Part shown: in pieces, positions 24,483 to 55,297 of the stretch | Layout: each line of letters starts with the position of its first letter | How positions within the stretch are numbered: the first letter of the stretch is position 1 | Origin: a virus | Direction: 5' to 3' (one strand) | IMG/VR virus record: IMGVR_UViG_3300023281_001121 | Location: 1 to 64,000 of that record | DNA: 64,000 nucleotides | Made by a program: the position numbers and the translations under genes | Notes under the pieces: model-generated | Databases searched by the model: none | Seen by the model: only the letters and a program-made list of their open reading frames with translations | Told to the model about the DNA's origin: nothing

Positions 24483-27400
24483 TTAGAAGAAATCGATCAG
24501 CGGTTCGACCTGTGCCGCGAGTGCGTTACGTTGCTTTGTCAAGGTATCAGTTAACGCTTGTCGACGTTGAGGAGAGAGTCTGCGATCCATCGATATGATG
24601 TTCATCTGCTTATTGACTGCGCTGATCTCGCGGGTCACTCGACGTAGATGCGGGAGGGCAGCGAGTTTCTGGCTTTCATTCGCAGCGATACCGAACGCTG
24701 CATCACCTCGACCCTCTTCCTGATAGATCTTCAGTGTGCGGGCAAGGCCATCAGCCTCGCTTAGCATCTCCCATATCAGTCGGTTGTACTTGGTCGTCGT
24801 TGGGATCTCGCCGCGCTTGAATCTCTCGATTACCGGCAACTCATGCAGTCTCTTCGACGTTAGCTCACCGAGCGTGCGCTCAGGTCCGTATAGGATGGAC
24901 TCGGTCATCACATTGCCGACGCCCATTGCATACACACCTAGCGCACCGAAGTAACCGCGAACGAAATGCTCAAGTCGCTTAGGTGACTGCAACCAGTCCG
25001 GAGCAGCTTCAGGCATCGCGTCGCCAACCCACTTCGCGAACTCCCCCGTGCGCCAGTCGTACTGACGTTCAGGCAGAAGGTTCTCCATGCCAGCCGGGAT
25101 GATCGGAGAATCGGTGAAGAAGCTTGTGTTGTAGTAGCTCTCCATCCACGGCTTAACAAGCTGCGGGACCGGGTTGAACGCGAACGTGTCAGTCGTCGCT
25201 GCGAGCATGCGCTCTGCAAATAGATCCCACCCATCAAGACCCTTCATGGACCGAAGCATTCTCTCTGGTATCGTCGAGAAGATGACTCCAGACTCAAATG
25301 GTTTCGGGATGCGGAAATGTTCGTCGCCGACCCAGAAATGATAGTAGGTGTCTTTGTCCCACTCGCTCACTTCGTCATACCGCTCGTCGTCGTCGTTGTA
25401 CAACGCTAACGCGATCGACGCCATCATCAAGCCGCCGCCCTTGGCGAGGAAGTTCATGGGATGTTCTTTCGCGCCGCGATACAGTCGATTGAGTCCCTGC
25501 ACTCTCGCATTCAGGAACGGCACGATCTGGATCATCGTCTGCGTTGCAGCCCAGTCTCCGGAGCGCGTGAAGTTGAGGAGATCCTGCGCCTGGTATGCAG
25601 CCTCCGCAGGCGACGGGATGCCCTCATTTATAGCTTGTCTGGACGCGTCCGCACCAGACATGCCGGTGGCAGTAAGCTCAGCGATCCTTCCATCCCACCG
25701 AGCTTTCAGTGTGTTGTACACGCGAACTCGATTACCGAACTCGGATGCGGTACCGACTCGACGCCACCACTTGAGCATATTCTTTGGTGACACGACGGTC
25801 TTCATGAATCCGCTGACGTCCTTGACGCCCATGTCTTTGAGCAGTCCACGGATCTGATCAGGATGTGAGTCGTAGAACCCGCCGCCGCCTCGACCTGCAT
25901 ACGCAAGCGCAAGCATCGCCGGGCTGTCGTTGTACGCTTCACGCAGCGAACTGATCGGCGCACCGAGAGACTTGATCGGGACGTCGCTCACTACGAACGT
26001 GGTCACCGTGTCACGTATCCAGTTGGCGATCATGAAGGCTGGATCGACAGTGACACCAATCGTCAGCCACTTCTTCGACGTCCTAAATAGCGACATCATC
26101 CCGCCGAACTGTTGGCCAGTCATGCCGCCGATCGAGCGCATGAGCATGCGGTCAGTCACTGCGTAGTATTGGGGCTTGCCCTTCTCCCACACGGTAACGA
26201 CATCACCACCCGGAGGCTTCATCCTCGTCCAGAACGTAGCCCATCGCTCCTGCTCACTCTTCGGCCACTGGTTGTAGATCGCTTCCGCGCCAGCGGCGTC
26301 AGAAGCATTGATCATGCCAGCCTTCAGCATCAGTTCTGAGATCTGCTTGGCGTTCAGAGAGAGGATCGGGCGCGCGACCTGGTCGAGCTTGATCATCGAC
26401 CTCGTTACCAGTCCGACCTTGGCGATGCGCTTCATTGCCTCGTTGCGATAGGTGCGCTCCAACAGGTACGCCGTGTTCATAAACATGGACTCGACGACGT
26501 TACCCTCTAGTCGCAGCGCGTCACCTTCACGATCAACGCCACCAGTCAGCTTAAAGATACCGCTCCCGCCGACATCAATTCGTTGACGTCCTGCTCCTGG
26601 TTCGCTGCGCCCTTCCAGCTGCATCGCCTCGCGCCAGAAAGGAACGTATTCGTACTGCCTCCACAGCGCCGCTTCCTTCTTATCGAGTACGCCACGGTTG
26701 ATCGCGAGATCGATGTTGGCCTGGTTCAAGCTATCCCACTTCGACAGGACCTCTTCGAAGACCTGCTCGTACGTGCGTCCGTCTGGAGCGGTACGAGTTT
26801 TCGCCCAGTCCAATGTCTCCGTCACCAGCTGCTCATCGAGCAACTTCTCTCTGGCTCTAGGCGTGCCGTGAGTACCCTTGGCCTTGTCTTGTTGAATGAT
26901 TCGCTGCGCTCGTCGAGCGACCATCCATTTCTCCCAGTTGCGCAGCTGACTGGTACCACCAATAGCTGATAGCGGCTGGAAGATCTCGGTGAATCCTTGA
27001 CCGTTGACTGGGTTTGAGAACTGACCGCCTTTGAATGATGGGATGCCATGACGCATGACCGCGCCCATCACGTTGTTGAAATTTCGTAACGTGCTGTAGG
27101 CTTTGTACGCACTGGCAGAAGCGTCGAGCAGCCCGTCTGCCAGCTGTATCTTCAGGCTCTTCGCAGCCTTCGTTTCCAGTACCTTGATCTGATTGCCCGA
27201 GTCGAGCAGTCCCTGCGTAAGCTCGTCGTACGCATTGTCATGGAATTCCTGGAGCCGCTTCTTCAGGCGGTCAACGAACGACATCTCTCGCTGAGGGATG
27301 TTCATCTTCTCTTCCCAACGACCGTCGAGATCATCGTTCATTGGGGCGCTCTCTTGCGAGAGGTACGGCACATCGAATTCTTCCGCAAGATCTTCAAGCG

Positions 27401-30400
27401 CGGAGCCTAGCTCCTGATCGTTGCTCGCTTTACGAACGCGGTCGAGGTTCTTCGACTTCAGGAACTCGCTGTACTTGTCGCTACTGCGATCGATTCCAAG
27501 CCCACCAGCCATCAGCGCACGGCGCTCCGCTCGTCTCTTGCTGGTACGGATGAGTCCTATCACGTCGGCGTCTGTCGGTGTCACCGTGAATCCCAGCTGC
27601 CGGACGAAAATCTTGACGCGGGCGATGATCTCCTTCATGACAGCGGCCCTACCGTTCATCGTCTCGGCTAGGTACGCAACGATCTCTTCAGTGAAGATGT
27701 CTTCGCCATTCTTCTCGATCGAGTAGCCTCGACCCATCATCACTCCGATAGCGTCGTTGATCGCATCGTTATCAGAGTTCAGGATGATCTTCTTTAGCTC
27801 AGGCAGTAGAGCCGTCTTCCACTTAGGCATCTGGCTCATCGTGAAGTGTCCGAACGTCTCATGCTGAATTGTTGCTTCGATGTCCGCAACGCTTTGCATG
27901 TTACCGGCAACGATCCAGATCTCTTTCTTGCTTGGCTGATACATCCCCTTGATGGTGGAGGCTCTGCCTCTTACGTTAGCCGGAAGATCATTCTGCGTCT
28001 CCACAACCCGAATGCGGACCAACGACGACAGGCTATTGATGACGTCAAGGATCTGGAACCGAACCTCACCGGCAGTGAAACTGCGTTGCTTGCCCTTGCG
28101 ACCTCGCGGGTTCTTGACGACGCGATCGTCTGAGGTTAGGAGCGTCTGTCCTTCGGCTGGATCGGTAAGCTGTTCAGCAGCCCCCTCTGCTGCTGACGCA
28201 GGCCTGGCAGTCTCGGAGAGGCGGGGTTCGTCTGTTCCAGCCCGCTGATCTGACGATTCAGAAACCGTGCCTGAGCCTGGTTCCCCGGCGGCAGGGGCCT
28301 GCGTGGTCTGTAGACTGGCATCGCGTTCTCCTACTTTTGCTTTCGGGGTTTGGAGTCCTTTTGCGGACTCGGCTTTGATTGCTGCCCTGATGATGGACTG
28401 GACTTCTTTGGCAGCACTATCGAGCTTCCCTCTGAGAAGATTGGATCGTCCTCTGGAACGGAGGCTCTTACGGTACGAATTGCCATTGCCTGTCTCCCAT
28501 TCGCCTTCGGAGCCGTGCTTCTCCAGGCGAGTCTCAACTAGATCAACGTCGATGGTGAGATTGTGCCGGTCTGTCAGTGCAAGGAACTCACCCTCTTTGA
28601 CGTCAGATATTGTACCAGCCGTATCGGTGCCAAGCGTGAGACGTTCCATGATCATTTGTTTCATGGCTTTGACACTGCGGAACTGACCGGTCTCCTTTCC
28701 TGCCTTGGTTTTGATCTCTGTGCGCTCGACCGTGATAGCAATTCCAGGAGCCTGATCACCTAGGCGCTGCGCTCCGCGCCACCCAACAGCCAACTCTGGG
28801 AACAGTTCGGTGAACTCCTTCATGAACGCTTCGGATACGGCAGCGTCACCTAACCCGCCTTCGCCCTGAGGATCAGAATACATGTAGATCGTGATGGAAT
28901 TAGCGCCTGACTTTTGCGGCTTGGTTCGGTACACCTCGCTCTGCTGGAGCAGAAGACCGATGACGTCAGCGAGATCTGCGGCGCGTGCCTCACTCGCCAG
29001 TGTGGTTAGCTGTGCCGATGGGTTAGGACTGAAGTCGGCGTACCCACCTGGAACGTATTCAATGCTAGTGGTCTGGCTTTGAACTAGACCCTTAGCAATC
29101 GGGATGACCTTGTCGACGACCTCCTGAGTAACTCGCGTGCGCTGCTCGACTGACAGCTTCGCCCACGCTGCAGCGAACAACTTCTCCATCGGCGAGCCAG
29201 ACCCAAACTCAACCTCGAATGAGAGCAGCTGCTCGTTCTTGGTGAAGGCAGCACTCGGAGTTTCTGGGCCACGACCGGTAGTAGGCAGCGACACCGTGGT
29301 AACCATGTGAGTCCAGTCGACTGCCTGAACTTCAGCTGCTGTCCATCCACCGCCGTCGAAGCCTTCCTTGTTCAGCTGTCTGGCAACGGCATTGTAGAAC
29401 GCGACGCCTGACTGGTATGCGGGTTCACCTGGCACGCCACTCTTCTGATCAATGACCAGTTTCGCTGCCTTCTTTCCGAACCTCTCCTGCAGATACGCCA
29501 GATAGGTGTCATCGATGAAGCCAACACCTCTTGATGCGTGGACATCTATAACTGCTGGCTGCATCCCACGGATGTCATGCCCCATGACGGTCCTGGTCAG
29601 CGTACCGATTGCACTATCGAGGAAGTCGTGGAGCTTCAGGCCGATGCCCTTCTCAACGACGCCTCCTGAGAAGAACGTCTTCAGCTGCTCTTCGCTAAGG
29701 CCTGCCTTCGATAGGTCTGGTGCGCCGCGAGACTTCTCGTCAGCGTTCAGCAAATTACGCATCGCTCCAGATGGTGACTCGTTCTTGTTCGCCATCAGCC
29801 AGCCGACCATCAACTCGTCCGCTCTCTCTGATCCGAACTTCTGATGGAATACCTTGCGAACGTCTCGATACCAGGTGCGAAACTCCTTGGTCGACTCAAA
29901 GTTATCGCGGATCTGTTTGACCTTGTCGCGAGGTTTCTGCTGACCGACGACTATCGTCCCGTCTTTGTCCTTCAGCACCGTGCGTGCGTTGCCTGCCGGT
30001 AACGCTCCACCGGTCACGGCTTTTGCTAGTCGTTTAAGATGCCTCCGCACATTACCAACCGCGTCTTTCGGTACTGGTCTCTGCACAGTTGGATTGTCAC
30101 GACGGATCTCGAACGCTTCCTGATCGAAGGTCCCGCTGGGTGGCCGCGTCAACGTACCAGCATTACCTTGCTCTGCAACGAAGCCAGCTGCCTCGTAGAA
30201 CTGCCGAAGCTCAGCGACCTTCATGCCCTGGTCGGCTGCGTCTTCCTTGGTCGGCGTGACAGTTAGTGTGACGTCGTTCTTGTCAGCTATCTGAGTGGTC
30301 TCGAAAAGCACGTCACCGGCTGCAGCCTGCGCTGGAGTCTCGTCACCGCGCTTGATCAACTCCTCGATCTTGACCGTGCCACGTTTCGGGCTTGAGACCT

Positions 30401-33400
30401 GGACGACAGCATCGCTCTTCACGACCTGCTGCGGAGCCGCCTTGTTCTGAACAACGCTCTTCGACAGATCCTTGGCGAAGCCGTCGACCCTCTCGTCACC
30501 AGTCTTGCGCGAGTTGGGGGAACCATCCTTCGGCGTGCTGCTGAACAGAGGCTCACTGCCAGACTGTTTCGATCGCACAGCTTCGGCAAGATTCTCGGCG
30601 ATCGTCTGACGATTATCGCGAGATTTGACAGTGACGCCTAACTCGGCAGCAGTTTCCTGAAGATCCTTACGTGACTGCTTTGCCAACTCCTCAACTGGTG
30701 ACTGGGCGCGAGCTATGGCAGCAGCCCGAGTTTCGCGAGCGCGCTGTCTTTCTCGTTGCTCTACGGTCGGACCTTTTTGTGCAGCCGTTTTCGGAATTTT
30801 GGCCGCGCCGATTTTTTCGGATTTGGCATCTGCGGGCCGCTGTGCATTCACTTTTGTGAGCAGATTCGATAATGCTTTCGACGCACCGCGAGCGGCTTTG
30901 TCGTTCTGCTCGATTGCCTGCGCGTCCTCAGCATTAGACGCCTCGTTAATTGCATCCACTGCAGCATCGAAGTCGGTAACGACTAGATGTCCGTCCTCGA
31001 TCGTCAGCCCATCGACCTGGACACCTCCGTCTGTGCGAACCTCAAGCGCGCTGGCCTGCGCTGTCGTTAGCTTGACCCGAACGGCTTCGGCTTCGGAGAC
31101 TTGGTTGTCTACTAGCCTCTGAAGCTGGGCTGCTTTGTTACCGCTGACAGGCAGATCATTGTTCTGCAGCACGGTGCGCAGTTCGTCCGAAGTGACTACA
31201 TCTATGCGGACGTCTTCTACAGTCAGGGTACGAGAAGGATCTTTGAATGCGGCGTCGAGTTGACGGTCATCAAGTATCTCTACCTTCGGACTCGCCCCGG
31301 TGGTCTCGGTAACGGGTTGCGCTGCTGCGGCGACTGGTTGCTCCGCTGGTTCGCCTTCAACTCCCCGTGGCTGTTCTTGCCTATCGGGTTCCGCGCTCCG
31401 CTCTGCACGTCCGTCCGGCTGTTGAACATCCTCGCTGCCTTCCCCGCTGACGCCTTCGGGCTTAGCCCTTGGCTTCGAAACTTTTTCTTGAGGCTGTTGA
31501 ACTGTTTCGGCACTGGGAGTCTCCTTGGCAGCAGCAGCTGCCTGCGTTCCGATGTCTTCCTCTTGGACGGTGGTCTCATCCACCTCTTCGGCCTGGGCCT
31601 GTGCCGTACCGATGGCTTCGTCTGTCGTGACGTTGACCGCCTGACCAGCAGGTCCAGCTGGCGGCGCGACGTCTGGCTTCTCACCAGGCTCACCTTCCTG
31701 AGTTGAAGCTGCAGCCTCTTCGGCATCACCGAGAGGTCGATCGCCCGGTCGGCCCGTGACGAAGTTCGCGCCTGCGCCTGGTACTAACATGCCAACGATC
31801 GTGGCTGGCAGTAGCACGTTGGTTTCGTCTTTGAATTTCTGGAACGCCTGCTCTACGGTGATCGTTTCCTGGCCGAGCATTATCATCGCTTCAGCCGGAC
31901 CCTCAAGGTACTCAGTGAGACCCTCGACCAGCCCGCCCAGCAGGCGAAGGCCAGCACCAGCAGCGAGCGAGTGTGGTGTCTTAATTGGAGCCAACAGAGC
32001 AGCTGCACCTGCCGAGTTTAAGATACCGCTGGCTGCGGTCATCATCAGGAACGCATTGTTGGCGGTAGACTGCGCGACGTCTTCCGGTACGCCTTGCTCG
32101 CGCAAGATGTTCAGCGTTTCGCGATAGGTCTGCGACCCTTCCAACATACCGCCAGCGATGCCGCCGACTGCTGTTGCTGTACCGATCGCTGCTCTACCGA
32201 TGCGAGCCATCTTCGCCTGCACCAGAGGATCTGCCATGTCAATCTGACGCCCGCCGACCCTCAGGAACCTGCCTGGCTGAGCTTGCCGTCGCACTCTACG
32301 CGGGAGTGCTTGACGCTGCGCTGCAGTCAGAGCGCCTTTCTTCAGCACCTCTGTCTCTGCCGCTCCACCGACTGTGCCTGCTACTCCTGCTCTCCTCGCA
32401 AGCTGAGACATGGCGAGCTTGCGGACTGCAGCGCGAGTGAGACCAATGGGGGTGAGGGTAGCGAACAGCGATGGAATGATCTGCCCTATCTGGTACGTCA
32501 GAAAGTCACCGTCTAGCAGAAGCTCAGGGTTCTCAAACACGTTGCCATCTGGGATGACTGCGCGCTCCGCGAACCCCTGGATGCGTGGCTGAAAGAACTC
32601 CTCGATACTCGTTCCCATGTTGGCAACAGCATCGATGCCTGTGATATTGCCCAGGTAGTTCAGGATCGTACCGGTGGACTCAGCCAAGCCAAGCCCACCT
32701 ACTGATAGACCTCTGCCAAGGTTCGCGAACAGACCGCCGCCCTCGCCCTGAGCTACGCGCTGAGCGCGCTGAGCGACAGCCTCTGGTGGCTCGTCAGGGG
32801 TGGGGTCAGCCCTGAGCCTGATGTCCTGCGTTGTAACCGGGGGCACAGACTCTGGATCTGGGGTCACAGCAGGCGTCGACTGAGCCATCATCTGGCGCTG
32901 AGCTTGCTGAGCTTGCCGTGTAAGGTTGCGGGCTTCTCTCAGGTTGGCCCCACCAGACGGCGGGAGAGGCTGCTCAGGAGGCGTGCCAGGTGGGCGGGGC
33001 AAGTCCGCACCACCACGGTCGATCGCTTGAGCTACAGCACGCTGGGCTGGTCCCTGCACGGTTGGCGGGGCAGGTAAGTCTGCCGGTGTGCTGGGGTCAG
33101 CCATCTGAGCCAGGCTCACCCGAGCAGGAGGCTCTTCCAGAGTGGCGTTGAAAGCCTCTCTGAACCGGCGAGTATGCGTCGGCAGATCGTCGGTGATCTC
33201 AGCGGGCTTGATCTCGGTGGGCTGGCGGGTACCTTCCTGGAAGCCACGGATGGCGTCGACCATCTCACGTCCACTCTCAGGACTGATCGCACCAGACCCC
33301 ATGCCAGCCTCTAGATTTCTGACGTTGCGCGCCCTGAGATCTAGGCTGTTGGCGTCCTCAAGAATCCTCGATGGATCAAGAGGATTCCTGGGCCTGGCTC

Positions 33401-33440
33401 CCTGAGCGACAGGCGGTGGGCGTGGTAGATCGATTGCCAT
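24483..33440 (-). CDS. Giant polyvalent internal-virion (ejection) protein, 2985 aa
   Basis: It is the largest gene in the window. The first 250 residues are Pro-rich, and Gly/Ala-rich hydrophobic helices occur at about 410-560. A SAP-type DNA-binding segment (about 747-785) is followed by a second SAP/Rho-N-like stretch. HETFGH (1860-1865) within IQHETFGHF is an HExxGH metallopeptidase-like motif. From about 2050 to 2900 the sequence resembles the LPD38-type domain found at the C-terminus of large polyvalent phage proteins (for example VDPAFMIANWIRD and KPFESGVIFSTIPERML). Such proteins are packaged and injected with the genome. It probably combines channel, protease and DNA-binding functions. 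No RNA-polymerase motifs were recognised. Confidence 0.75.
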   Translation of the reverse strand: MAIDLPRPPPVAQGARPRNPLDPSRILEDANSLDLRARNVRNLEAGMGSGAISPESGREMVDAIRGFQEGTRQPTEIKPAEITDDLPTHTRRFREAFNATLEEPPARVSLAQMADPSTPADLPAPPTVQGPAQRAVAQAIDRGGADLPRPPGTPPEQPLPPSGGANLREARNLTRQAQQAQRQMMAQSTPAVTPDPESVPPVTTQDIRLRADPTPDEPPEAVAQRAQRVAQGEGGGLFANLGRGLSVGGLGLAESTGTILNYLGNITGIDAVANMGTSIEEFFQPRIQGFAERAVIPDGNVFENPELLLDGDFLTYQIGQIIPSLFATLTPIGLTRAAVRKLAMSQLARRAGVAGTVGGAAETEVLKKGALTAAQRQALPRRVRRQAQPGRFLRVGGRQIDMADPLVQAKMARIGRAAIGTATAVGGIAGGMLEGSQTYRETLNILREQGVPEDVAQSTANNAFLMMTAASGILNSAGAAALLAPIKTPHSLAAGAGLRLLGGLVEGLTEYLEGPAEAMIMLGQETITVEQAFQKFKDETNVLLPATIVGMLVPGAGANFVTGRPGDRPLGDAEEAAASTQEGEPGEKPDVAPPAGPAGQAVNVTTDEAIGTAQAQAEEVDETTVQEEDIGTQAAAAAKETPSAETVQQPQEKVSKPRAKPEGVSGEGSEDVQQPDGRAERSAEPDRQEQPRGVEGEPAEQPVAAAAQPVTETTGASPKVEILDDRQLDAAFKDPSRTLTVEDVRIDVVTSDELRTVLQNNDLPVSGNKAAQLQRLVDNQVSEAEAVRVKLTTAQASALEVRTDGGVQVDGLTIEDGHLVVTDFDAAVDAINEASNAEDAQAIEQNDKAARGASKALSNLLTKVNAQRPADAKSEKIGAAKIPKTAAQKGPTVEQRERQRARETRAAAIARAQSPVEELAKQSRKDLQETAAELGVTVKSRDNRQTIAENLAEAVRSKQSGSEPLFSSTPKDGSPNSRKTGDERVDGFAKDLSKSVVQNKAAPQQVVKSDAVVQVSSPKRGTVKIEELIKRGDETPAQAAAGDVLFETTQIADKNDVTLTVTPTKEDAADQGMKVAELRQFYEAAGFVAEQGNAGTLTRPPSGTFDQEAFEIRRDNPTVQRPVPKDAVGNVRRHLKRLAKAVTGGALPAGNARTVLKDKDGTIVVGQQKPRDKVKQIRDNFESTKEFRTWYRDVRKVFHQKFGSERADELMVGWLMANKNESPSGAMRNLLNADEKSRGAPDLSKAGLSEEQLKTFFSGGVVEKGIGLKLHDFLDSAIGTLTRTVMGHDIRGMQPAVIDVHASRGVGFIDDTYLAYLQERFGKKAAKLVIDQKSGVPGEPAYQSGVAFYNAVARQLNKEGFDGGGWTAAEVQAVDWTHMVTTVSLPTTGRGPETPSAAFTKNEQLLSFEVEFGSGSPMEKLFAAAWAKLSVEQRTRVTQEVVDKVIPIAKGLVQSQTTSIEYVPGGYADFSPNPSAQLTTLASEARAADLADVIGLLLQQSEVYRTKPQKSGANSITIYMYSDPQGEGGLGDAAVSEAFMKEFTELFPELAVGWRGAQRLGDQAPGIAITVERTEIKTKAGKETGQFRSVKAMKQMIMERLTLGTDTAGTISDVKEGEFLALTDRHNLTIDVDLVETRLEKHGSEGEWETGNGNSYRKSLRSRGRSNLLRGKLDSAAKEVQSIIRAAIKAESAKGLQTPKAKVGERDASLQTTQAPAAGEPGSGTVSESSDQRAGTDEPRLSETARPASAAEGAAEQLTDPAEGQTLLTSDDRVVKNPRGRKGKQRSFTAGEVRFQILDVINSLSSLVRIRVVETQNDLPANVRGRASTIKGMYQPSKKEIWIVAGNMQSVADIEATIQHETFGHFTMSQMPKWKTALLPELKKIILNSDNDAINDAIGVMMGRGYSIEKNGEDIFTEEIVAYLAETMNGRAAVMKEIIARVKIFVRQLGFTVTPTDADVIGLIRTSKRRAERRALMAGGLGIDRSSDKYSEFLKSKNLDRVRKASNDQELGSALEDLAEEFDVPYLSQESAPMNDDLDGRWEEKMNIPQREMSFVDRLKKRLQEFHDNAYDELTQGLLDSGNQIKVLETKAAKSLKIQLADGLLDASASAYKAYSTLRNFNNVMGAVMRHGIPSFKGGQFSNPVNGQGFTEIFQPLSAIGGTSQLRNWEKWMVARRAQRIIQQDKAKGTHGTPRAREKLLDEQLVTETLDWAKTRTAPDGRTYEQVFEEVLSKWDSLNQANIDLAINRGVLDKKEAALWRQYEYVPFWREAMQLEGRSEPGAGRQRIDVGGSGIFKLTGGVDREGDALRLEGNVVESMFMNTAYLLERTYRNEAMKRIAKVGLVTRSMIKLDQVARPILSLNAKQISELMLKAGMINASDAAGAEAIYNQWPKSEQERWATFWTRMKPPGGDVVTVWEKGKPQYYAVTDRMLMRSIGGMTGQQFGGMMSLFRTSKKWLTIGVTVDPAFMIANWIRDTVTTFVVSDVPIKSLGAPISSLREAYNDSPAMLALAYAGRGGGGFYDSHPDQIRGLLKDMGVKDVSGFMKTVVSPKNMLKWWRRVGTASEFGNRVRVYNTLKARWDGRIAELTATGMSGADASRQAINEGIPSPAEAAYQAQDLLNFTRSGDWAATQTMIQIVPFLNARVQGLNRLYRGAKEHPMNFLAKGGGLMMASIALALYNDDDERYDEVSEWDKDTYYHFWVGDEHFRIPKPFESGVIFSTIPERMLRSMKGLDGWDLFAERMLAATTDTFAFNPVPQLVKPWMESYYNTSFFTDSPIIPAGMENLLPERQYDWRTGEFAKWVGDAMPEAAPDWLQSPKRLEHFVRGYFGALGVYAMGVGNVMTESILYGPERTLGELTSKRLHELPVIERFKRGEIPTTTKYNRLIWEMLSEADGLARTLKIYQEEGRGDAAFGIAANESQKLAALPHLRRVTREISAVNKQMNIISMDRRLSPQRRQALTDTLTKQRNALAAQVEPLIDFF

Positions 33441-34541: not shown

Positions 34542-36914
34542 CTAGCACGGGCAAGACTTGATCTTGGTCTCGCCAGCAAATGCGTTTTCGATTCTGGACT
34601 CACCAGTGTTCTCGTTCTTGTTCGTGTTATTCGTGCCACCGTGCATGGTCGTGTCCTGGTCAACCTTCGACTCATGGAACCGACCAAGCTGCGCGGCAGA
34701 GATCTGGGCTGCTGATCTAGAAGCTGCCGCTGAAGCTGTCGCGCCTGACGTTGATGCGGCTGCTGAAGATGTGGCATTCGCCTGGGTAGCAGATTCGATA
34801 GTTCCGCCAACGTGACCCTGGAAATCAACCCGCTCACCGAATAGCGAAACGTACTGCTGGAATCTTCCCACCTCTCCATTTACTTCAGCCGCGAACCCGC
34901 GCACCTTGGAGTCATAGATCGACGCAACTGCATTCGATTGATCGACCAGCACGCGTGCCGCGTCCACCTCTCTCTGACTCTCGGCGGTGAATGCCTGCAC
35001 ATCGACGCCGAACCTGCTCACCTCACCTTCGAATCGTCGAACCTCTGCGTCCACTTGGGACGCGTACTGACGAACCCGAGAGTCGAACGACTCGTTGTTC
35101 GCACGCTTGGTGTCGACGATGATCTGAGATGCGCTAACGTCTCGACCTATCTGCGCGTTGAACGCCTGGACGTCACCCTGGTACCGCTGCACTTCAGAAT
35201 TGTATCGACCTGTCTCTGCCTGACTCTCAGCTGTGAGCCTGTTGACCTGCGCGGCAAACACCTGAGTCTCTGAGTTCAACTCGGCAGTGATCGCCTCAAT
35301 CTGAGCGCGCACCGCCTCGATGCTCGCGCGGAAGCTCTCGATCTTGAACCGTTCAACATCGATTTCCTGTTGCTTGGACTGGCTTTCAGCACTCACCACC
35401 GCGCTGTACGCCTCGACCTCGTTCTTGAAAGCCTCGACTTCACTGGAGAACGTGTCGATCTTCAGGCGCTCAGCGCCAACGCGTGACGTGTAGATGTCGG
35501 TCGCGATAGCAGCGGCCCGCACCTCCGTGGCGTAGCCCTCGATCTCAGCGGAGAACTTATCAATGATCAGGCGGTTGCTATCGATGACGAATCGCGATGC
35601 TTCCAGCTGCGATTTGAATAGCTCGAACGTCGCTAGAACGGCTTCGATCTGCGCCCGATAGTTGTCGACCTTCGCCGCGTTGATCTCGCCCTTGATCCGC
35701 TCTCCGTCAAGCTCCGCTCTGAACACATCGAGCTTCAGGACTTCGCCTTCCAACTCAGTCTTGAACACCTCTGACTCGGTGCGGTACGCCACCACGTCCG
35801 CGTTGTACCGCGTGACCTGAGCGTTGAATAACTGCAGCGCCAGATCAACAGTCGTCCTGGCGATCTCGAACCCAAGCTGCTGTCGATTCAGATCATCCGT
35901 GACTAGGGCAATCTCTAGTCGCCCAGACTCAGTGACAGCGAACCTGACATTCTCCACCTCCATCTCGGCCTGCTTGATGGCCTGGTCCCTGGAGAGAGAA
36001 CTGCTCTTGTCCTGATTGCCCTGAAGTATTTCCTGGTTGCGTTTAACGAGCGCACCTGGAGGCATCGAGAATCCGCGAGCGGAAAACTCTTCGAAGGCTT
36101 CCTCTCTCGCCTGCAATCCGATGGCATCTTCACGCTCGCGCGCACGTTGCCAGATTGCCTGGTAGATGGCGTCCGACAACCCGGTCGATGTATCGCTTAA
36201 CCAGAGATCGAGCTTTGTCTGCAGCGACGATAGAAGTGACGAGACGTACGCCGACTGAGTGAACGAGAAAGTCGCAGTCGGATCTGCCGGACTGCCAACC
36301 AGGACCGCATCGAACGACGGGATGATTACCGTTGGCGATGACGGCAGAACGATCTGCTCCAGTGTCGGAGCAGCAGGGAGAGCAGACGAAGGTGTTGGCG
36401 GCAACGTAACTGCAGCGAACGAGCCGATGGTAGGAGCGACCTTCGTGAACTCACTGGGAGGCAGCGGCAGATTGATTGCAGGCTTGATCGCAGTCAGCTG
36501 CGGCGCAGGGTCAACCACATTGGCCGAGATGCTCGCCAACGATGGAGCGTCAGGAGATGATGGGAACGCGTCCGCGACAGGTACCGTGCCGAAGAACGAC
36601 GGAGAGTTGAATGAGCCGCCGCTGAATGACGGTGCTGTCGCACTGCCAACAGAAGGAGGAGCGAGGTCAGCCGGTGGGGCGGGCGGGGCCGGAATGAATA
36701 GCGCCGCACCAGAGAACAATGGCGAAGTGATCGCCGAGAGTCCAGGCACAACCGGATCGGGTGGAGCTACCGGAGGAGCAGGTATCGCGACAGTCCCGCC
36801 CTGAAATGGCGGCTCGCTCAAAGTACCTACAGTGCTGAACGACGCCGCTGTAAGTGGGGTGTTGATACCCTGCTGGATGATTGCCAGCCCTTCGTCTGCA
36901 AAATCAACAGCCAT
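34542..36914 (-). CDS. Long coiled-coil virion protein, 790 aa
   Basis: The N-terminal 215 residues are Pro/Ala-rich with repeated PxxP segments. Residues about 220-700 are nearly all helical with an aromatic at roughly heptad positions (FKTELEGEVLKLD, YRAQIEAVLATF and similar), indicating a very long coiled coil. An Ala/Ser/Gln-rich stretch and a polar tail end in KSCPC. It may be a fibre, tail-needle or internal-core component. It sits between the large internal proteins and the tail genes. Function not recognised. Confidence 0.6.
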   Translation of the reverse strand: MAVDFADEGLAIIQQGINTPLTAASFSTVGTLSEPPFQGGTVAIPAPPVAPPDPVVPGLSAITSPLFSGAALFIPAPPAPPADLAPPSVGSATAPSFSGGSFNSPSFFGTVPVADAFPSSPDAPSLASISANVVDPAPQLTAIKPAINLPLPPSEFTKVAPTIGSFAAVTLPPTPSSALPAAPTLEQIVLPSSPTVIIPSFDAVLVGSPADPTATFSFTQSAYVSSLLSSLQTKLDLWLSDTSTGLSDAIYQAIWQRAREREDAIGLQAREEAFEEFSARGFSMPPGALVKRNQEILQGNQDKSSSLSRDQAIKQAEMEVENVRFAVTESGRLEIALVTDDLNRQQLGFEIARTTVDLALQLFNAQVTRYNADVVAYRTESEVFKTELEGEVLKLDVFRAELDGERIKGEINAAKVDNYRAQIEAVLATFELFKSQLEASRFVIDSNRLIIDKFSAEIEGYATEVRAAAIATDIYTSRVGAERLKIDTFSSEVEAFKNEVEAYSAVVSAESQSKQQEIDVERFKIESFRASIEAVRAQIEAITAELNSETQVFAAQVNRLTAESQAETGRYNSEVQRYQGDVQAFNAQIGRDVSASQIIVDTKRANNESFDSRVRQYASQVDAEVRRFEGEVSRFGVDVQAFTAESQREVDAARVLVDQSNAVASIYDSKVRGFAAEVNGEVGRFQQYVSLFGERVDFQGHVGGTIESATQANATSSAAASTSGATASAAASRSAAQISAAQLGRFHESKVDQDTTMHGGTNNTNKNENTGESRIENAFAGETKIKSCPC

Positions 36915-36954: not shown

Positions 36955-38451
36955 CTAAGCCCTGAAGGCGATGTCACCGCCCACAGATTGACCCTGGCTC
37001 CCGCCTTTGTCTTGGTCAAGCAATGCTGGCTGCGCCAGCCCTGCCGCTTCAAGTCCTCCTGATGCGCCAGCACTAACTTTTGGGGAACCATCACCGTCAA
37101 GGAGGAACCAGAACGTGCGGCTGTTGAGATTTGACTCAGCGCCAACATTGTAATTGCCAGACGTCGTATTCCCCTGAATCCAAGCCAAGCCTGCTAGGTT
37201 AGCCCCCATCAAGAAGCCACTAACCAGTCCCGGAAGGTGAAATGCTGACCTCCCCCAGTTCGAACAGTATTGCGGTGACAGCCAGACGTCCTTGTCCTTT
37301 TCAATGTGAGACTCGAACGGATCTACACCAGCAAAAGGTTTGAACCCAGTAGCATGCTTACCATCAGGCCCTCCGTAAAAGAATCCGATCGCGGCGTCAC
37401 AGCCTGCGTTCTTGTAAAGCAAGACGATCTCTCGCTCTGAAAGCACCTCGCCAGTTTCGTCATTCCGCTCAGTCCAGTTGATGATCGCAAAGTCGCGACG
37501 TAACCCTGCTCCTAAGTTCCGTGCGTCAAGCAAAGTAGGCATCGGTTTGTCACCACGATCCAGTGCCGTCGCACTGCTAGTCAAAGACTGGCCTCGCGCT
37601 TTCGATGCGTCTTTTTGCAAACCGCCCATGTCCCTACTGATAACGATAGTTTCATCCTGAACGCTTGGCGATGTGTAGAAGCCCTCATACAGCGTCGGAA
37701 CGATATTATTTCCGTTGCACAACGTCGACCCTAGGGGGGAACCCAGCATGGTGATGATGGCATTCAGATGGATATTGGTGCCTATGACGTCGCCACCTTC
37801 CGTGATGTCCTGCTGATCACAAGGCGCAAGCCTCGCGACGTGCCCGTTGTCGTTTATGTTGAAATGATTGCCGCCTTCGAATGCTATCCAGGAGTCCTGC
37901 GTGTACATATTTTCGTAGACCGCACCGTTGTAGAGGAATTCGTTTCTCAATCTTAGGTACCCACCGACTGGGTCTTCCCCCTGAGTGCAATAGAGAACTC
38001 CCTCAAAGATGCTGGGGAGGTAGGGCCATGATAGGTCGGTCGCCTCTGAGACCTGCGCCGAACCTCCCGGCTCGTCCACCCCTAATATCTGAGAGAACAT
38101 TCGCTTCCCTGGTATGCCGTACGGGAATGGGCATTGAACCATTCCGGCAAGCAAGGTCTGTATCCTCTGATTCTCTTCAGCACCTCGTTGCTGCACGGTA
38201 GCCCTAGCCATCGGTGTCGGACCAGTTGCGTCGTAAACAACAGTAATTTCTGTGTTCTCATCCGCACTGAATCTACCGACCGCCCTACCGCCCTCTGCAT
38301 CTCCGGTGTGCGACTCGTTCTGCAGACGCGAGACCATGTTCTCGACCATCATCTTGATTTGTCCAGAGACTGGAGAGTCAGACGCAAAGTAGATGTCGAC
38401 AGTCTCGATGTCGCCGTCTTCGTTATCGTCTAGACCAGACCAGAGAGCCAT
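36955..38451 (-). CDS. Hypothetical virion protein, 498 aa
   Basis: MALWSGLDDNEDGDIETVD opens a mixed alpha/beta protein with about nine cysteines and many Gly-rich loops. It follows the 520-aa repeat protein with no gap (TAG then ATG). Its size and position suggest a tail or internal-virion component. No domain recognised. Confidence 0.55.
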   Translation of the reverse strand: MALWSGLDDNEDGDIETVDIYFASDSPVSGQIKMMVENMVSRLQNESHTGDAEGGRAVGRFSADENTEITVVYDATGPTPMARATVQQRGAEENQRIQTLLAGMVQCPFPYGIPGKRMFSQILGVDEPGGSAQVSEATDLSWPYLPSIFEGVLYCTQGEDPVGGYLRLRNEFLYNGAVYENMYTQDSWIAFEGGNHFNINDNGHVARLAPCDQQDITEGGDVIGTNIHLNAIITMLGSPLGSTLCNGNNIVPTLYEGFYTSPSVQDETIVISRDMGGLQKDASKARGQSLTSSATALDRGDKPMPTLLDARNLGAGLRRDFAIINWTERNDETGEVLSEREIVLLYKNAGCDAAIGFFYGGPDGKHATGFKPFAGVDPFESHIEKDKDVWLSPQYCSNWGRSAFHLPGLVSGFLMGANLAGLAWIQGNTTSGNYNVGAESNLNSRTFWFLLDGDGSPKVSAGASGGLEAAGLAQPALLDQDKGGSQGQSVGGDIAFRA

Positions 38452-40014
38452 CTATTTTTTGAGCCTCTTCTCGGCGATCTTGGTTTCCAGTTCGAGCGTA
38501 TCGAGCTTGACATCTCCACCGGCAACATTCTCGATGTCGACCTGGTGGTACCTGCTCTTAATCCCGCGTTTGAATTTGCTTCGCTCTGTGGTCCTCGCGC
38601 TCGCCGACTGTCGCAAGTTGTACGGTCCACTGGAGATCCCCTGATCCGTAACGAGCGTGAGTTGAAGCTGACCGGATGAACCCACACCTATGTATGCTCC
38701 GGTCACCCTCTTGAGAAGAGACGCCTCTGGACCGTTCTCATAGAACGCACCGAAGTCTGTTGATCCGATCGTAGCTATAGCGTCGATGTCTATTCCATCG
38801 TCGTCGTCTCCATCGAGGAGATAGATGCCATCACTGCGAGCGCCAAGGAAGTCCTGTCCGATCGCAGCGAAGGCATCAAAGTCGTAGTTCTCGTATCGCG
38901 CTGGTGCGCCCGTGTTCTGATTAAGCACCCATGTGTAAAGCTCCTCTGTTGTGTCCAGGAAGTAAGCGCCCTGCGCGTAGCCGGTCAACTCGGCAAGGGC
39001 TTGGATCAGGTAGGCCGAGTCACCGAATCCAGTCAGGGCAGCATAGACATTGAGTCCGTACTGACCATCAGTGAACCCGTTCTCTGCCTGGTATGCGTTG
39101 AGGACTGCCGTGGCATCAACGAACCCGTTCAGCGCGTTGTAAATAGCAAGCGTGTACTGACTGTCGGTTCTGAGTTGAGCTAACTGAAGGACCGAGATCG
39201 CGTACGCGCTATCGACACGTCCTTCCAGTTGCAGCAGAGCGTTGAGGTCGTAGTGGACACCAAACTTTTCTTCTATGAGTTGGTATACATCTATAGCCGA
39301 CTGCGCATCCAGATGACCGTTCGACTCAATGAATGTGTTCAGAGCATACTGGGCAATCGCAGCTTGCTCGCGCGCCTCCCAGGCGTTGAGGTCGTAGGCC
39401 CCTGTCGCGATTCCATTCTCTTGCTGCTGATACGTCAGGTAGTCGTACGAACTGACGGCGCTCATCAACAGGTCAACATAGATGTCTATGCTGTACAGGC
39501 CACCGAGATAACCCTGAGCGAGAAGATAGATGTCCAGCTGATACTGCGAATTGAAGACTTGTTCATCAGCCTCGAATGCCAGGAGGTCGTAGTTGCCCTG
39601 CTTCTGATCGTCGAGTTCAACAAAAGCGAGTAGCTGGTATTCCATCTCGCCAGCGGACCCTTCCAACTCGGCGTAGGCATTGAGAACGTACTTGCCAGAA
39701 CCGATGATGTCGCCTTCTGCCTGGTATGCGTTTAGGTCTGCGTTGCCTTGAAGGACTGTGTTCTCAAACTCTTCGAACCCAGCGAGGAAATACGCACCGC
39801 CAAAGATCCCTCCCTTGGGATCTGTTTCGCCTTGACCGAGAGTGGCGTCGCCCGCTTGATACTGGACCCCGATCTCGACCTGGTACTCACTGTTGGCCTG
39901 CTGATCGTAGGAGGTGTAGTTGTGGAGGTATTGCCCCACGCCCAACGGACCCTGGAGAGCCGACTTACCTTTATGTAAGACCTGCAGATGAACCGAAGTG
40001 ACACGAATAGCCAT
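38452..40014 (-). CDS. Tail protein with eighteen 16-17-residue repeats, 520 aa
   Basis: Residues about 74-358 are a tandem array with pattern [QA]-Y-x-L-x-x-Y-x-x-L-x-G-x-x-x-[GSA]. The first aromatic or equivalent falls at residues 75, 92, 109, 126, 142, 158, 174, 190, 207, 223, 239, 255, 271, 287, 303, 319, 335 and 351. The period is 17 at first, then 16. Alternating hydrophobic residues with turn-forming Gly/Asn suggest a beta-solenoid or curli-like stack. The C-terminal 150 residues (GIYLLDGDDDD..., GSSGQLQLTLVTDQG) look like a tail-hub or fibre-attachment domain. The ATG overlaps the upstream stop. I do not recognise the repeat as a named family. Confidence 0.65.
   Translation of the reverse strand: MAIRVTSVHLQVLHKGKSALQGPLGVGQYLHNYTSYDQQANSEYQVEIGVQYQAGDATLGQGETDPKGGIFGGAYFLAGFEEFENTVLQGNADLNAYQAEGDIIGSGKYVLNAYAELEGSAGEMEYQLLAFVELDDQKQGNYDLLAFEADEQVFNSQYQLDIYLLAQGYLGGLYSIDIYVDLLMSAVSSYDYLTYQQQENGIATGAYDLNAWEAREQAAIAQYALNTFIESNGHLDAQSAIDVYQLIEEKFGVHYDLNALLQLEGRVDSAYAISVLQLAQLRTDSQYTLAIYNALNGFVDATAVLNAYQAENGFTDGQYGLNVYAALTGFGDSAYLIQALAELTGYAQGAYFLDTTEELYTWVLNQNTGAPARYENYDFDAFAAIGQDFLGARSDGIYLLDGDDDDGIDIDAIATIGSTDFGAFYENGPEASLLKRVTGAYIGVGSSGQLQLTLVTDQGISSGPYNLRQSASARTTERSKFKRGIKSRYHQVDIENVAGGDVKLDTLELETKIAEKRLKK
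38922..39795 (-). repeat. 18-unit protein repeat region (16-17 residues per unit)
   Basis: Coding repeat within the 520-aa protein, about 48-51 bases per unit. Units are diverged at DNA level, so the repeat is ancient and maintained by protein structure. Confidence 0.7.
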
Positions 40015-41216
40015 TAGCTAACGATCTCGTAGCCGATCTCTGCGGCGTTCACCTCTGCCATCGTCCATGGCGCTGTGGTATCAGGGTTGTCCTCATAGAT
40101 GTGGTAGAGCGCCTGGAATTCAGATTCCGTCAGCGTCAGAGTCGTGCCGACTCCCTCCGTAGTGCCTTCGAAGATGACAACGCGAGCAGTGCGCGTGCCT
40201 GTATCAAGCGTGTCCTTTGCGATGGCCATGACCTGCACCGCCTGGACCGATCCGAACAGATCCTCCGGGACCACCGAAGTGAACGTGTCAACACGGTCCT
40301 TGTTAGTCGCGACGTTGGCCTCGTTGTACGTGGTGTCGAAATCATGCTGGACCTCGTCCACCATCAGCGCGTTGTTGGTGCCAGATTGAGGAGTGAAGTC
40401 AATCTCGCCGACAACTTCGGCTGATGGGTAGAGGACGTCGATGGTTGCAGGGTAAATAAAGTCCTGCTCCCCAGCGACAGCCGGATCAATAATGTGGAGA
40501 TCAGTGATTCGATAGATAGCTCCGGAACCAATAGTTGAGTTGGGATACAGATCTCCAGACGAGAACCAGATCTGATCCATGACATCGGTGCCTCCGATCG
40601 ACGTGTCGAGGCCATTACCAAGGAACCAAACGTCTCCGTCGACTCGGACCTCTATCTCACCTACAGAGTTATCAATCTTGACCCGGAACTCAACGTAGTA
40701 CCACTTGCCTAGCTCCAACGCATGGAAGGTCGAGTCGCCCGCAGCCTCTGCGTCGTCCTCTCCCTCCCAGAAGAATCCACTGCCGGTGCCCAACTGAATC
40801 CGCATGTACGCAAGGTTAGTCTCACCCTGATCACCGAAGAAGTTGAACTCAGTCGTGACGTGAGTGAAGTTACCGGAGTCGTCTCGGAAATAGAGGAACG
40901 TGTCATCACCATGGATCTGCGCTGGGTTCCATCCCTCCAACATCAGATTGAAGCCGACGATGTACTCGTCTTTCGACGGTAGATCTATCTTCACGTTCGC
41001 TGACTGCGACGCTCCGATGTTTCCCTTGAACCTCAAACATCCAGGCGCAGGGGAACGCGGCGACTGGGTACCCGAAGGCATAGTCGTCGGTCCACCTGTT
41101 GGCAGGATCTCGATGTTGTTACCGAGAACCGCTCCATCTTTCGTGAGCGTGTAACGCGCCTCCAGGTCCTGGAAGCCGCGATACTGGCTCCAGGATTCCA
41201 TCCACACGACACTCAT
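40014..41216 (-). CDS. LamG-like tail protein, distant member of a five-gene family, 400 aa
   Basis: The start is ATG 41216 (MSVVWMESWSQYRGF), overlapping the upstream TAA. A jelly-roll domain (LELGKWYYVEFRVKIDNSVGEIEVRVDGDVW) is the concanavalin/LamG pattern also present in the four genes at 54265-58371. The C-terminal module (DTTYNEANVATNKDR, then EGTTEGVGT, then WTMAEVNAAEIGYEI) is shared with them too. These probably decorate the tail and bind host glycans. It is separated from its paralogues by about 13 kb. Confidence 0.7.
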   Translation of the reverse strand: MSVVWMESWSQYRGFQDLEARYTLTKDGAVLGNNIEILPTGGPTTMPSGTQSPRSPAPGCLRFKGNIGASQSANVKIDLPSKDEYIVGFNLMLEGWNPAQIHGDDTFLYFRDDSGNFTHVTTEFNFFGDQGETNLAYMRIQLGTGSGFFWEGEDDAEAAGDSTFHALELGKWYYVEFRVKIDNSVGEIEVRVDGDVWFLGNGLDTSIGGTDVMDQIWFSSGDLYPNSTIGSGAIYRITDLHIIDPAVAGEQDFIYPATIDVLYPSAEVVGEIDFTPQSGTNNALMVDEVQHDFDTTYNEANVATNKDRVDTFTSVVPEDLFGSVQAVQVMAIAKDTLDTGTRTARVVIFEGTTEGVGTTLTLTESEFQALYHIYEDNPDTTAPWTMAEVNAAEIGYEIVS

Positions 41217-42001
41217 TACACAAAGATCCTTACCCCGATGCGGAACGCATTGTTGGTCTGCGACTGGTTCGTTCCAGCAGGAACCGTTCGCTTGAGCCAC
41301 CAACCTTGGTAGTCGCCTGCACTGAGATCAGGGATCACGATGCCGCTCGCGTAGTCGACCGGGTTGTTGTCATCGAAGTCGATCGTGAGTGCCGGGTCCG
41401 TATCCTCGTTGGCGATCACGCCGAGCGCGATGTTCTTCGCCTCGTCACCGATAGCGATCTGAATCACGTCCTGTCCAGGCGTGTTCTGCTCGACCCACAT
41501 ACGGATGTCGACCATCGCGTCCGTAGCGTGATCATTCTCCCAGTAGACACCACGGAACTCGATGTCTCCCGCCTTGGCGTCAGCCTTGGCCACATCATCG
41601 AACATGTTGTTCGCGATGTTGGTGATCGTGATCGTGTTGGTCTGATCACTGGATGGCAATGCGCCTGAGGTCACGGTGACCTTCAGCACTCCACCATTGC
41701 TCGCTCCCTGAATGGCGTAGGCACCATTCGTGGACACGTCCACCGCGACACCCGCTGTGCCGTTGAGAGGCGTCCACCGTAACGTGGTGTTGACACTGTC
41801 GAACGCCAGCGTGCCGTCACCCTCGTCGTTGCCAGCGGCGTCATCGATAACCACGCCTGTGATGGTCGTTGGCGCGCTGGGCGTCTGCGAAAGAATGTCC
41901 TTGGTGCCCGCAGTGGATTTGGCTCCACCCAGGTCCAGGTTCGGATCGGTGTTCGCGGCACCTCCCGAGTGGACGATTTTCAGATCAGCTAATGTAGCCA
42001 T
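41216..42001 (-). CDS. Virion protein, 261 aa
   Basis: Beta-rich protein starting MATLADLKIVHSGGAANTDPNLDL. The C-terminal pattern (DLSAGDYQGWWLKRTVPAG...FRIGVRIFV) resembles the end of the 251-aa protein at 43592-44347 (AAQGCWLELTLTAG...VTMRVSGNTV), suggesting related domains. Likely tail or baseplate. Confidence 0.6.
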   Translation of the reverse strand: MATLADLKIVHSGGAANTDPNLDLGGAKSTAGTKDILSQTPSAPTTITGVVIDDAAGNDEGDGTLAFDSVNTTLRWTPLNGTAGVAVDVSTNGAYAIQGASNGGVLKVTVTSGALPSSDQTNTITITNIANNMFDDVAKADAKAGDIEFRGVYWENDHATDAMVDIRMWVEQNTPGQDVIQIAIGDEAKNIALGVIANEDTDPALTIDFDDNNPVDYASGIVIPDLSAGDYQGWWLKRTVPAGTNQSQTNNAFRIGVRIFV

Positions 42002-42011
42002 GATTCACTCC

Positions 42012-43265
42012 TCAAATTGCACTGCCCCTGCGAGCGGTCTCCAGGGTTACATAGTCAGGCGCGAGATAGGACGATTCCACTCCCGTACCCATCGTTGCAA
42101 CGATCTGCCGCAAGCCTCTCTGCTCACGGAAGATCATCGCACCATTCTCAAAGTTGCTAACTGCAGACTTGTCTTCTTGGACGTTCGTGATCTGAGCCTC
42201 AAGGCCACCGATCACGATCCCGAAATCACTGAACCATGCGACGTTGTCAGACTTGGGGATGTCGAGTCCAGTGCCCTTCACCGCACCGTACGGCAGCACA
42301 GCACGTTGCTGGAACTCGTTCGTGTCAACCCCACTGATCCAATAGGTCTGATCGGCACAGATGTAAATGCCATCAGCCACTGCCTTCATCACGGTCACGT
42401 CGCTTGGGAACTGCAGATAGTTCATGTGCGGCTTCACAAGCCCGTAACGCATCGCGTCGGTGTACCAGACCACCTTCCCTTGAGCGATGTAGATGCGCCC
42501 GTTGTGGTACTCCAGGACCGTTCCGGGTGCCGGTGTGACCCCATGTTGAGTCTGCAGCCTGATGTCCTGATTGTTGGACACCTGGGTGATCCGGAACGAA
42601 GGCACGCCAGTGATGAACTCTCCGACTCGATACAGGCCTTCGCCGTTAACTTCCGAACAGTAGACCCGCACCTTGCTGGCTTCCGTTGACGTGGGTATGT
42701 CGGTCAGCGTTATCGTTCCGCCGTCCGCTGTCACCTCAGCGATCTTCGCTAACGGTGTGCCACTTTCCTCGCCGTCGTCAGCGACGAACGTCATGGCAAC
42801 CTGGTAGGTTCCTGCTGTTAATCCACCGCCGGTATCAGAGACAACCAGTGTTGGCTGATCAACAGGTGGAGTGATGCCCCACGGCTTGACGAGTCCATCC
42901 GCTGTGAGCCTGCCGGTCAGGAGTCCGTTCGAGTAATAGATGTCATTGTTCACGCTCACGTAGAACATCGGGTGTGGCCCTACGCCCATACGAATCATCA
43001 GGCGCACCCAGCTGCCAGACATCTTGACCAGTTCCCATAGGGTACCGCTCTCGACGAACAGAACTTTTTCACCGTTGGAGTAAAGCGTTCCGCGCTCGAT
43101 CGTGCCGGTCCAGATTTTTGTCCGGCCACGACGACGTAAGAGGTTGCCCGTGTCGGTGATGTCGTAGTTGACGCTGCGCCTGAGCGCAGTGACCGGCAAC
43201 TCCTCAGCACCAAGGATGTTGTTCTCACCGTCAGGGAAGCCAGTGTATTTCGGATACGTCGGCAT
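42012..43265 (-). CDS. Beta-propeller-like tail protein, 417 aa
   Basis: An N-terminal RRSVNYDITDTGNLLRRRGRTKIW and repeated short strands (LFVESGTLWELV, FYVSVNNDIYYSN) resemble podoviral virion proteins with propeller folds ('vNvDitdsGklrrR.G'). A fibronectin-like middle (GTYQVAMTFVADDGEESGTPLA) is present. Probably a tail-shaft or stabilisation protein. Assignment is by pattern recall only. Confidence 0.55.
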   Translation of the reverse strand: MPTYPKYTGFPDGENNILGAEELPVTALRRSVNYDITDTGNLLRRRGRTKIWTGTIERGTLYSNGEKVLFVESGTLWELVKMSGSWVRLMIRMGVGPHPMFYVSVNNDIYYSNGLLTGRLTADGLVKPWGITPPVDQPTLVVSDTGGGLTAGTYQVAMTFVADDGEESGTPLAKIAEVTADGGTITLTDIPTSTEASKVRVYCSEVNGEGLYRVGEFITGVPSFRITQVSNNQDIRLQTQHGVTPAPGTVLEYHNGRIYIAQGKVVWYTDAMRYGLVKPHMNYLQFPSDVTVMKAVADGIYICADQTYWISGVDTNEFQQRAVLPYGAVKGTGLDIPKSDNVAWFSDFGIVIGGLEAQITNVQEDKSAVSNFENGAMIFREQRGLRQIVATMGTGVESSYLAPDYVTLETARRGSAI

Positions 43266-54264: not shown

Positions 54265-55293
54265 CTAGGTAACTAATTTAATGCCAAACTGCGCGGCGTT
54301 AACAGATGTCTCTGTCCAGTTGATTCCACCGTTAGGATCATTCTCGTACATGGCTTCTTTGTAATGGTAGTCAACGCCGAGAGACAGATTTGCACTGTCT
54401 ACCTCCGTCACGTTGCTCCTGGCCACCGTAGCTATCTCTCTGAACCCCGCCTCTTCTTTGCGAGCCAACAGAGACACCTGAACACCGAACACGTCACCGA
54501 TACTTGCCCCGGCTAGAGCGGCAAACCCATAGAGATCTTTATTGGTGGCTGTGGCCGAGTGAACGTACGTGGTGTCGTCATCGGGTGGGGCCATTTCATC
54601 GACGCGATCGGCGTTGGTCGAGCCAGCACCAACCGCCGTGAAATTATTAGTGGCCCCATCTGCGTCTGGCAGCAGCGTCTCGACAAACACATCCCCTAAC
54701 CTGGCAGTGTTGTCTGAACCGCTATCGTCCAGAACATAAACGTCATCGACCAAAGCATCAGTGAAGCTATGCCCGAAGAACCGAATCGTATCGATGAACG
54801 CGTCGGTGCCGTTCAGAGTATCCGCTGATGTCCCGGTGATGACGTTCTGCCCGTCAACGTAGACATCGTAGGTGCCGGTCGAGTCATGGAGCGTGACGTC
54901 CACCTCGATGTAATACCAGGTAGACATGGCAAGCCCCAACCCGCTACTAATCCCAAGTTGCGTCGACCCTCGATCGATTGAGATCTCGCCGCTGGCATTC
55001 GTTCTTAGGGTTATCTTCTCCACGCCTACGCCGAACGTATTGAAGATGTCTACGAGTTGAGGACCGGCGTTAACCAGGCGGTATGCGAATCCCACCACGA
55101 ACGATGCAGTAGTTGGCGGAACGGCGTGAGAAGCAAAGCCATTAGTGAAGACCATCTGCATGGCTCTGCCCACGCCATCTCTTCCTGCCGTGGACTGCGT
55201 CACGTAAGCGTCATTGTCGAAGTTCCACCCGCCTCGCCTTTGCTCCGCATCATCGTCGTACTGTTCGAAACCTTCAATGAAAAGCAATGCCAT
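54265..55293 (-). CDS. LamG-like tail protein, tandem family member 4, 342 aa
   Basis: ATG 55293 (MALLFIEGFEQYDDD). A jelly-roll core (STWYYIEVDVTLHDSTGTYDVYVDGQNV) and the shared C-terminal module (VDEMAPPDDDTTYVHS..., INWTETSVNAAQFGI) place it in the same family as the next three genes. It is the most diverged of the tandem four. Probably a receptor-binding decoration. Confidence 0.7.
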   Translation of the reverse strand: MALLFIEGFEQYDDDAEQRRGGWNFDNDAYVTQSTAGRDGVGRAMQMVFTNGFASHAVPPTTASFVVGFAYRLVNAGPQLVDIFNTFGVGVEKITLRTNASGEISIDRGSTQLGISSGLGLAMSTWYYIEVDVTLHDSTGTYDVYVDGQNVITGTSADTLNGTDAFIDTIRFFGHSFTDALVDDVYVLDDSGSDNTARLGDVFVETLLPDADGATNNFTAVGAGSTNADRVDEMAPPDDDTTYVHSATATNKDLYGFAALAGASIGDVFGVQVSLLARKEEAGFREIATVARSNVTEVDSANLSLGVDYHYKEAMYENDPNGGINWTETSVNAAQFGIKLVT

Positions 55294-55297
55294 AGTT

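Follow-up and report, generated by a model that had tools for sequence, protein, structure and literature searches.

A diverged array of 16-residue repeats ahead of a known virion-protein cap, and its possible role as a stalk on a short viral tail

Pseudomonas phage KPP25 ORF005 is a virion structural protein that PDB chain 26gp_Q represents across its full 620 residues, and its chain Q sequence is also held by PDB entries 26la and 44nx, together with 26la_X, a homologue of a long coiled-coil-like protein encoded near the gene studied here. The nozzle proteins T7 gp12, P22 gp10, Pa223 and SU10 carry a C-terminal beta domain. Beta-flowers (Pfam PF21784) are, in the portion of PMC10584680 drawn on here, barrels whose four to six petals are beta hairpins, and the F116-like phage phiC725A is characterised, in an excerpt of PMC5217972, as a podovirus whose tail fibres are long. 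Among open-access papers, judged by title and abstract opening, we found nothing on our repeat protein or on the KPP25 structure, a weak absence given that only open papers were covered. The protein encoded in the window (the whole 64,000-nucleotide stretch of virus DNA analysed here) shares with KPP25 ORF005 a C-terminal cap, an Hc3 gene upstream and a coiled-coil homologue downstream, whereas ORF005 has a different N-terminal part and the 16-residue array was not found in it (period z 0.8). By sequence matching, the cap is already known, and the array is without a Pfam match or a PDB sequence match.

Table 1. Position and basis of the repeat-protein gene, its parts and two neighbouring genes in the window.
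Feature	Position	Strand	Basis
Repeat-protein gene	38452..40014	-	520 aa; ORF list, sequence, relatives with equal limits
N-terminal segment, residues 1-28	39931..40014	-	RVTxVxLxVL stretch common to related arrays (alignment, 8 proteins)
Degenerate units Y29 and Y44, with insertion	39793..39930	-	Unit census
18 regular 16/17-residue units, residues 75-366	38917..39792	-	Lag analysis, shuffles, unit census
C-terminal cap, residues ~357-519	38458..38946	-	PHROG 26502, PDB 26gp_Q; beta domain in AF2 model
Neighbour: head closure Hc3 / nozzle-type protein	42012..43265	-	phrog_8040, E 2e-54; PDB 26fb_K, E 3.5e-37
Neighbour: long coiled-coil-like protein	34542..36914	-	Homologue of PDB 26la_X

The gene lies exactly where the first-pass annotation had placed it. 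It is encoded on the minus strand, and its ATG and the stop of the gene before it (40014-41303, minus strand) overlap. The eighteen-copy periodicity described there holds as well: between residues 61 and 366, a range picked after the repeat had been seen, 55 identities occur at lag 16 where about 24 are expected, and the maximum over 2000 shuffles and lags 5-40 was 44. Tyrosines mark the units at residues 75, 92, 109, 126, 142, 158, 174, 190 and 207 and then at every sixteenth residue up to 351, with another residue in place of the tyrosine in a few units. The spacing, which had been given as 17 and then 16 residues, does contain both values, 16 in 13 of the 17 gaps and 17 in the other four, and the 17s comprise the first three gaps plus a later one from 190 to 207. 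Ahead of the eighteen clear units stand two degenerate ones together with an inserted stretch of about 15 residues, which brings the total to 20 if a single gap of 31 is permitted. No tandem array was found in the repeat gene at the DNA level, and the DNA of the units has a mean pairwise identity of 38.5%, confirming that the copies have diverged. The 16-residue array is real, its DNA is diverged and its register has been kept. For a higher-order period, such as a propeller blade made of four units, there is at most a possible hint: unit similarity was slightly raised at a distance of four units (13.6 against about 11), and at seven too.

Related arrays were recovered from IMG/VR by three routes. 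A protein search returned L002 and L003, which are 53-54% identical to the window protein; a two-unit DNA pattern matched 21 stretches and gave one further new real array, L148, of which L154 is a fuller form; and a pattern for the WVxNxNTGAP motif matched eight stretches, three on known contigs and five new (L164-L168), all five of which carry arrays. The resulting nine arrays hold 20 units (the window, L154 and L168), 19 (L002 and L003) or 18 (L164, L165, L166 and L167), and in all nine the last unit begins 16 residues ahead of NTGAP. The near-constant period and the 18-20 units in nine diverged arrays support the proposal of the first reading that structure keeps the spacing. Units at the same position are more alike than other units: identity is 51-53% against 22-23% among the window, L002 and L003, and in four pairs drawn from L164-L167 it is 50-65%, compared with about 32% elsewhere; the contrast between the window and L148 is weak (32% in register, 28% shifted by one unit and 22% elsewhere). 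This pattern indicates that the array is old and is neither expanding nor being homogenised. Bacterial and archaeal genomes, scanned twice, yielded no relatives, and none came from a megablast against phages with 24 kb of window sequence as the query.

Over the nine arrays the unit reads G-[FY]-L-D-x-[QE]-Y-x-L-[NDP]-A-[YF]-x-A-L-T. This refines the unit proposed at first, [QA]YxLxxYxxLxGxxxG: the best-conserved core of 157 units (L166 being represented by 7 of its 18), G11-[FY]12-L13-D14-x15-[QE]0-Y1-x2-L3, straddles the boundary drawn there. Positions 4-10 are variable, with P or G frequent in L164-L168, and the extra residue of the 17-mers falls, by eye, at about positions 10-15. All nine arrays are acidic, with 33-52 D+E against 4-10 K+R.

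The C-terminal third of the protein belongs to a known family, so the initial remark that no match was recognised stands for the array only. The cap matches phrog_26502 (E 1.4e-24), a family that PHROG places in the category 'head and packaging', and 26gp_Q (E 6.5e-14), with 8e-37 for the cap family by profile; the family match is confined to residues 356-519, and a match along the whole length of KPP25 ORF005 or PHROG 26502 was not found. A DNA pattern for the cap retrieved at least 120 stretches in IMG/VR, and among the matches listed 117 of 127 frames, taken from all loci, match a cap profile built with the window included. Among the matches listed, a period with z > 4 precedes the cap in 49 of the 103 frames with at least 80 upstream residues: 21 in 30 frames, 20 in 10, 16 in 4 (counting L003 twice, also as L015), 18 in 3, and 22 and 26 in one each. 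After removal of frames left open and of caps that were incomplete or nearly identical, 80 of the listed matches remained, with period 21 in 23, period 20 in 9, period 16 in 3, period 18 in 2, other periods in 3, bare caps in 6 and no single period in 34. Period-21 repeats resembling LPALTASG are commonly seen in phage proteins; judged by eye, they may share their register with the 16-residue unit. Pfam searches of 73 members among the matches listed (bare caps, the AP1 frame and near-duplicates left out) gave Laminin_G_3 in seven and F5/8 type C in four, and the window protein has neither. In six relatives (L106, L107, L018, L043, L064 and L091; 152-194 aa) nothing but the cap is present, so some phages can do without the array or N-terminal part. 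A cap relative is also carried by Methanosarcina virus MetMV (L011, 2972-4372), which has an archaeal host on record, and another by phage phiC725A.

The gene is placed in a tail module beside Hc3 and coiled-coil genes, as in the cap family at large. Among the matches listed, which comprise 121 cap frames and include redundant contigs, an Hc3 homologue precedes the cap gene in 42 of the 45 loci with 5 kb of upstream sequence, and a coiled-coil homologue follows it in 56 of the 58 loci with 2.5 kb of downstream sequence, within 150 nt in 30 of them. For L164-L168 the counts are five of five and two of five, respectively, several of these stretches ending shortly after the gene. The match of the cap to a solved virion protein and these tail-gene neighbours support one part of the first-pass annotation, namely a scaffold-like array in a structural protein of the tail. 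A further gene (36955-38451, minus strand) separates the repeat gene from that of the coiled-coil protein; it has no PHROG or Pfam match, and its homologues among the loci compared occur only in L003 and L002 (25-27% identity). The second half of the gene directly before the repeat gene (40014-41303) matches phrog_2448, as do four tandem genes on the same strand (54265-55377, 55298-56416, 56320-57342 and 57352-58371); judged from these matches, the phrog_2448 genes are a paralogous set of virion-region proteins whose function is unassigned. The same operon holds a 2985-residue frame (24483-33440, minus strand), with phrog_18222 and phrog_9854 matches only in its last ~570 residues.

Structure prediction with AF2, which had been suggested as a check, modelled the cap and left the array at low confidence. 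From the single sequence the pLDDT was 31; from a 29-row alignment, in which MAFFT had offset the L148 row by one unit, the mean was 50, with residues 381-520 at 53-89 in blocks of ten and the array at 26-55. The cap model resembles the C-terminal domains of podophage tail chains (Pa223, Z 8.2; SU10, Z 7.9; T7, Z 6.7), in rows that cover the cap and not the array, and the names in BFVD rows include tail tubular protein B and proteins of the P22 gp10 type. Taken with the acidity of the arrays, this likeness in predicted shape to the T7 gp12, P22 gp10, Pa223 and SU10 nozzles would fit an array that extends or acidically lines the tail channel rather than standing outward, a reading we consider unlikely: furin and carbohydrate-binding modules reach about equal Z, the nozzle-type protein is here a separate gene (Table 1), and profile comparison of the cap with the C-terminal end of T7 gp12 is weak (hhalign E 0.02, probability 2.4). 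Foldseek against PDB releases to 2026-04-08 gave no match at E <= 0.001, and 26gp_Q was absent from the listed rows.

The fold of the array has to be judged from its sequence pattern and from a weak model. In the AF2 drawing units 4-7 contain strands, whereas units 9-17 contain helices, the latter at a pLDDT of about 50 or less. The hydrophobic moment of the four Y-group arrays favours a strand at positions 0-9 (1.6 at 160-170 degrees against 1.0 at 100) and is helix-like at positions 4-11. A repeat with one short helix per unit would account for the drawn helices and for the moment at positions 4-11, but the low confidence of those units and the richness of positions 4-10 in P and G in L164-L168 speak against it, and we regard it as quite improbable. 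The beta-solenoid of 16 residues per coil that was proposed at first is favoured by the strand-like alternation and by a unit length that is nearly constant, with 17-mers rare; the AF2 model, however, does not show a solenoid, and the P/G-rich second half of the unit and the D-G turn suit hairpins equally. The leaning to beta structure in that proposal is retained and the solenoid itself has become a minor possibility. A curli-like amyloid fibre, also raised in the first reading, would share with the array its short tandem repeats with aromatic and glutamine positions. The window array matches no Pfam family, curli families included at E <= 0.1 or 10, nothing points to amyloid, and the array is strongly acidic, of near-fixed size and joined to a virion-protein cap, so that this idea can practically be set aside. 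A sequence profile of the array alone matched no PDB chain at E <= 10.

One relative offers a lead to hairpins. L165 scores above the Pfam cut-off for the beta-flower family PF21784 (27.5 against 25 bits) and L164 below it, whereas the window protein (E <= 10) and the other six of the nine arrays have no match. Beta-flowers are alike in their short hairpin-like repeats and differ in having, in the part of PMC10584680 used, 4-6 petals against 18-20 units here, and we take the L165 match as a lead and not as membership. Together with the alternation at positions 0-9 and the P and G residues of the unit's second half, it makes the array lean to beta hairpins, a structure that would not have to form solenoid coils. 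In such hairpins the turn would fall at D14-x15, the strands at about 11-13 and 0-3, and the variable loop at 4-10.

The explanation that we prefer, at about even odds, is that the window protein is a short-tail structural protein of a podophage-type virus. Its cap would dock it on the tail, next to both the nozzle and the coiled-coil protein. The array would be built of short beta hairpins and form a stiff, acidic stalk or spacer, keeping the N-terminus a fixed distance away from the tail. Since some relatives carry a lectin-like domain at their N-terminal end, the protein would point outward N-terminus first, that terminus being the far end, and since other repeats or lectin-like domains take the place of the array in relatives, the stalk would be a module that can be exchanged while the dock stays constant. 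In favour of the stalk we count the cap match, the Hc3 and coiled-coil neighbours, the constant 16 residues to NTGAP, the swapped domains ahead of the cap and the fibres of phiC725A. Against it count the AF2 helices in units 9-17, the helix-like moment at 4-11, the beta-flower match missing from the window array and the PHROG category; against an outward array in particular, the lectin-like domains occur in 11 matches among the 73 listed members and not in the window protein. A bolder version, which we hold to be doubtful, is that the 16-residue unit represents a new, very short class of beta-hairpin repeat, forming closed, flower-like rings or a single long ribbon of set size on the tails of phages, which would exchange it for repeats of other classes while keeping the docking cap constant, a modular stalk system of short tails.

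A repeat array without a family is now tied to a widespread family of virion proteins with a solved member, and this family carries unlike repeats or lectin-like domains at one place. If the stalk reading is true, the array would be a modular part of the short tail whose length and tip could be compared across many viruses, and it would also provide a natural hairpin-repeat scaffold.
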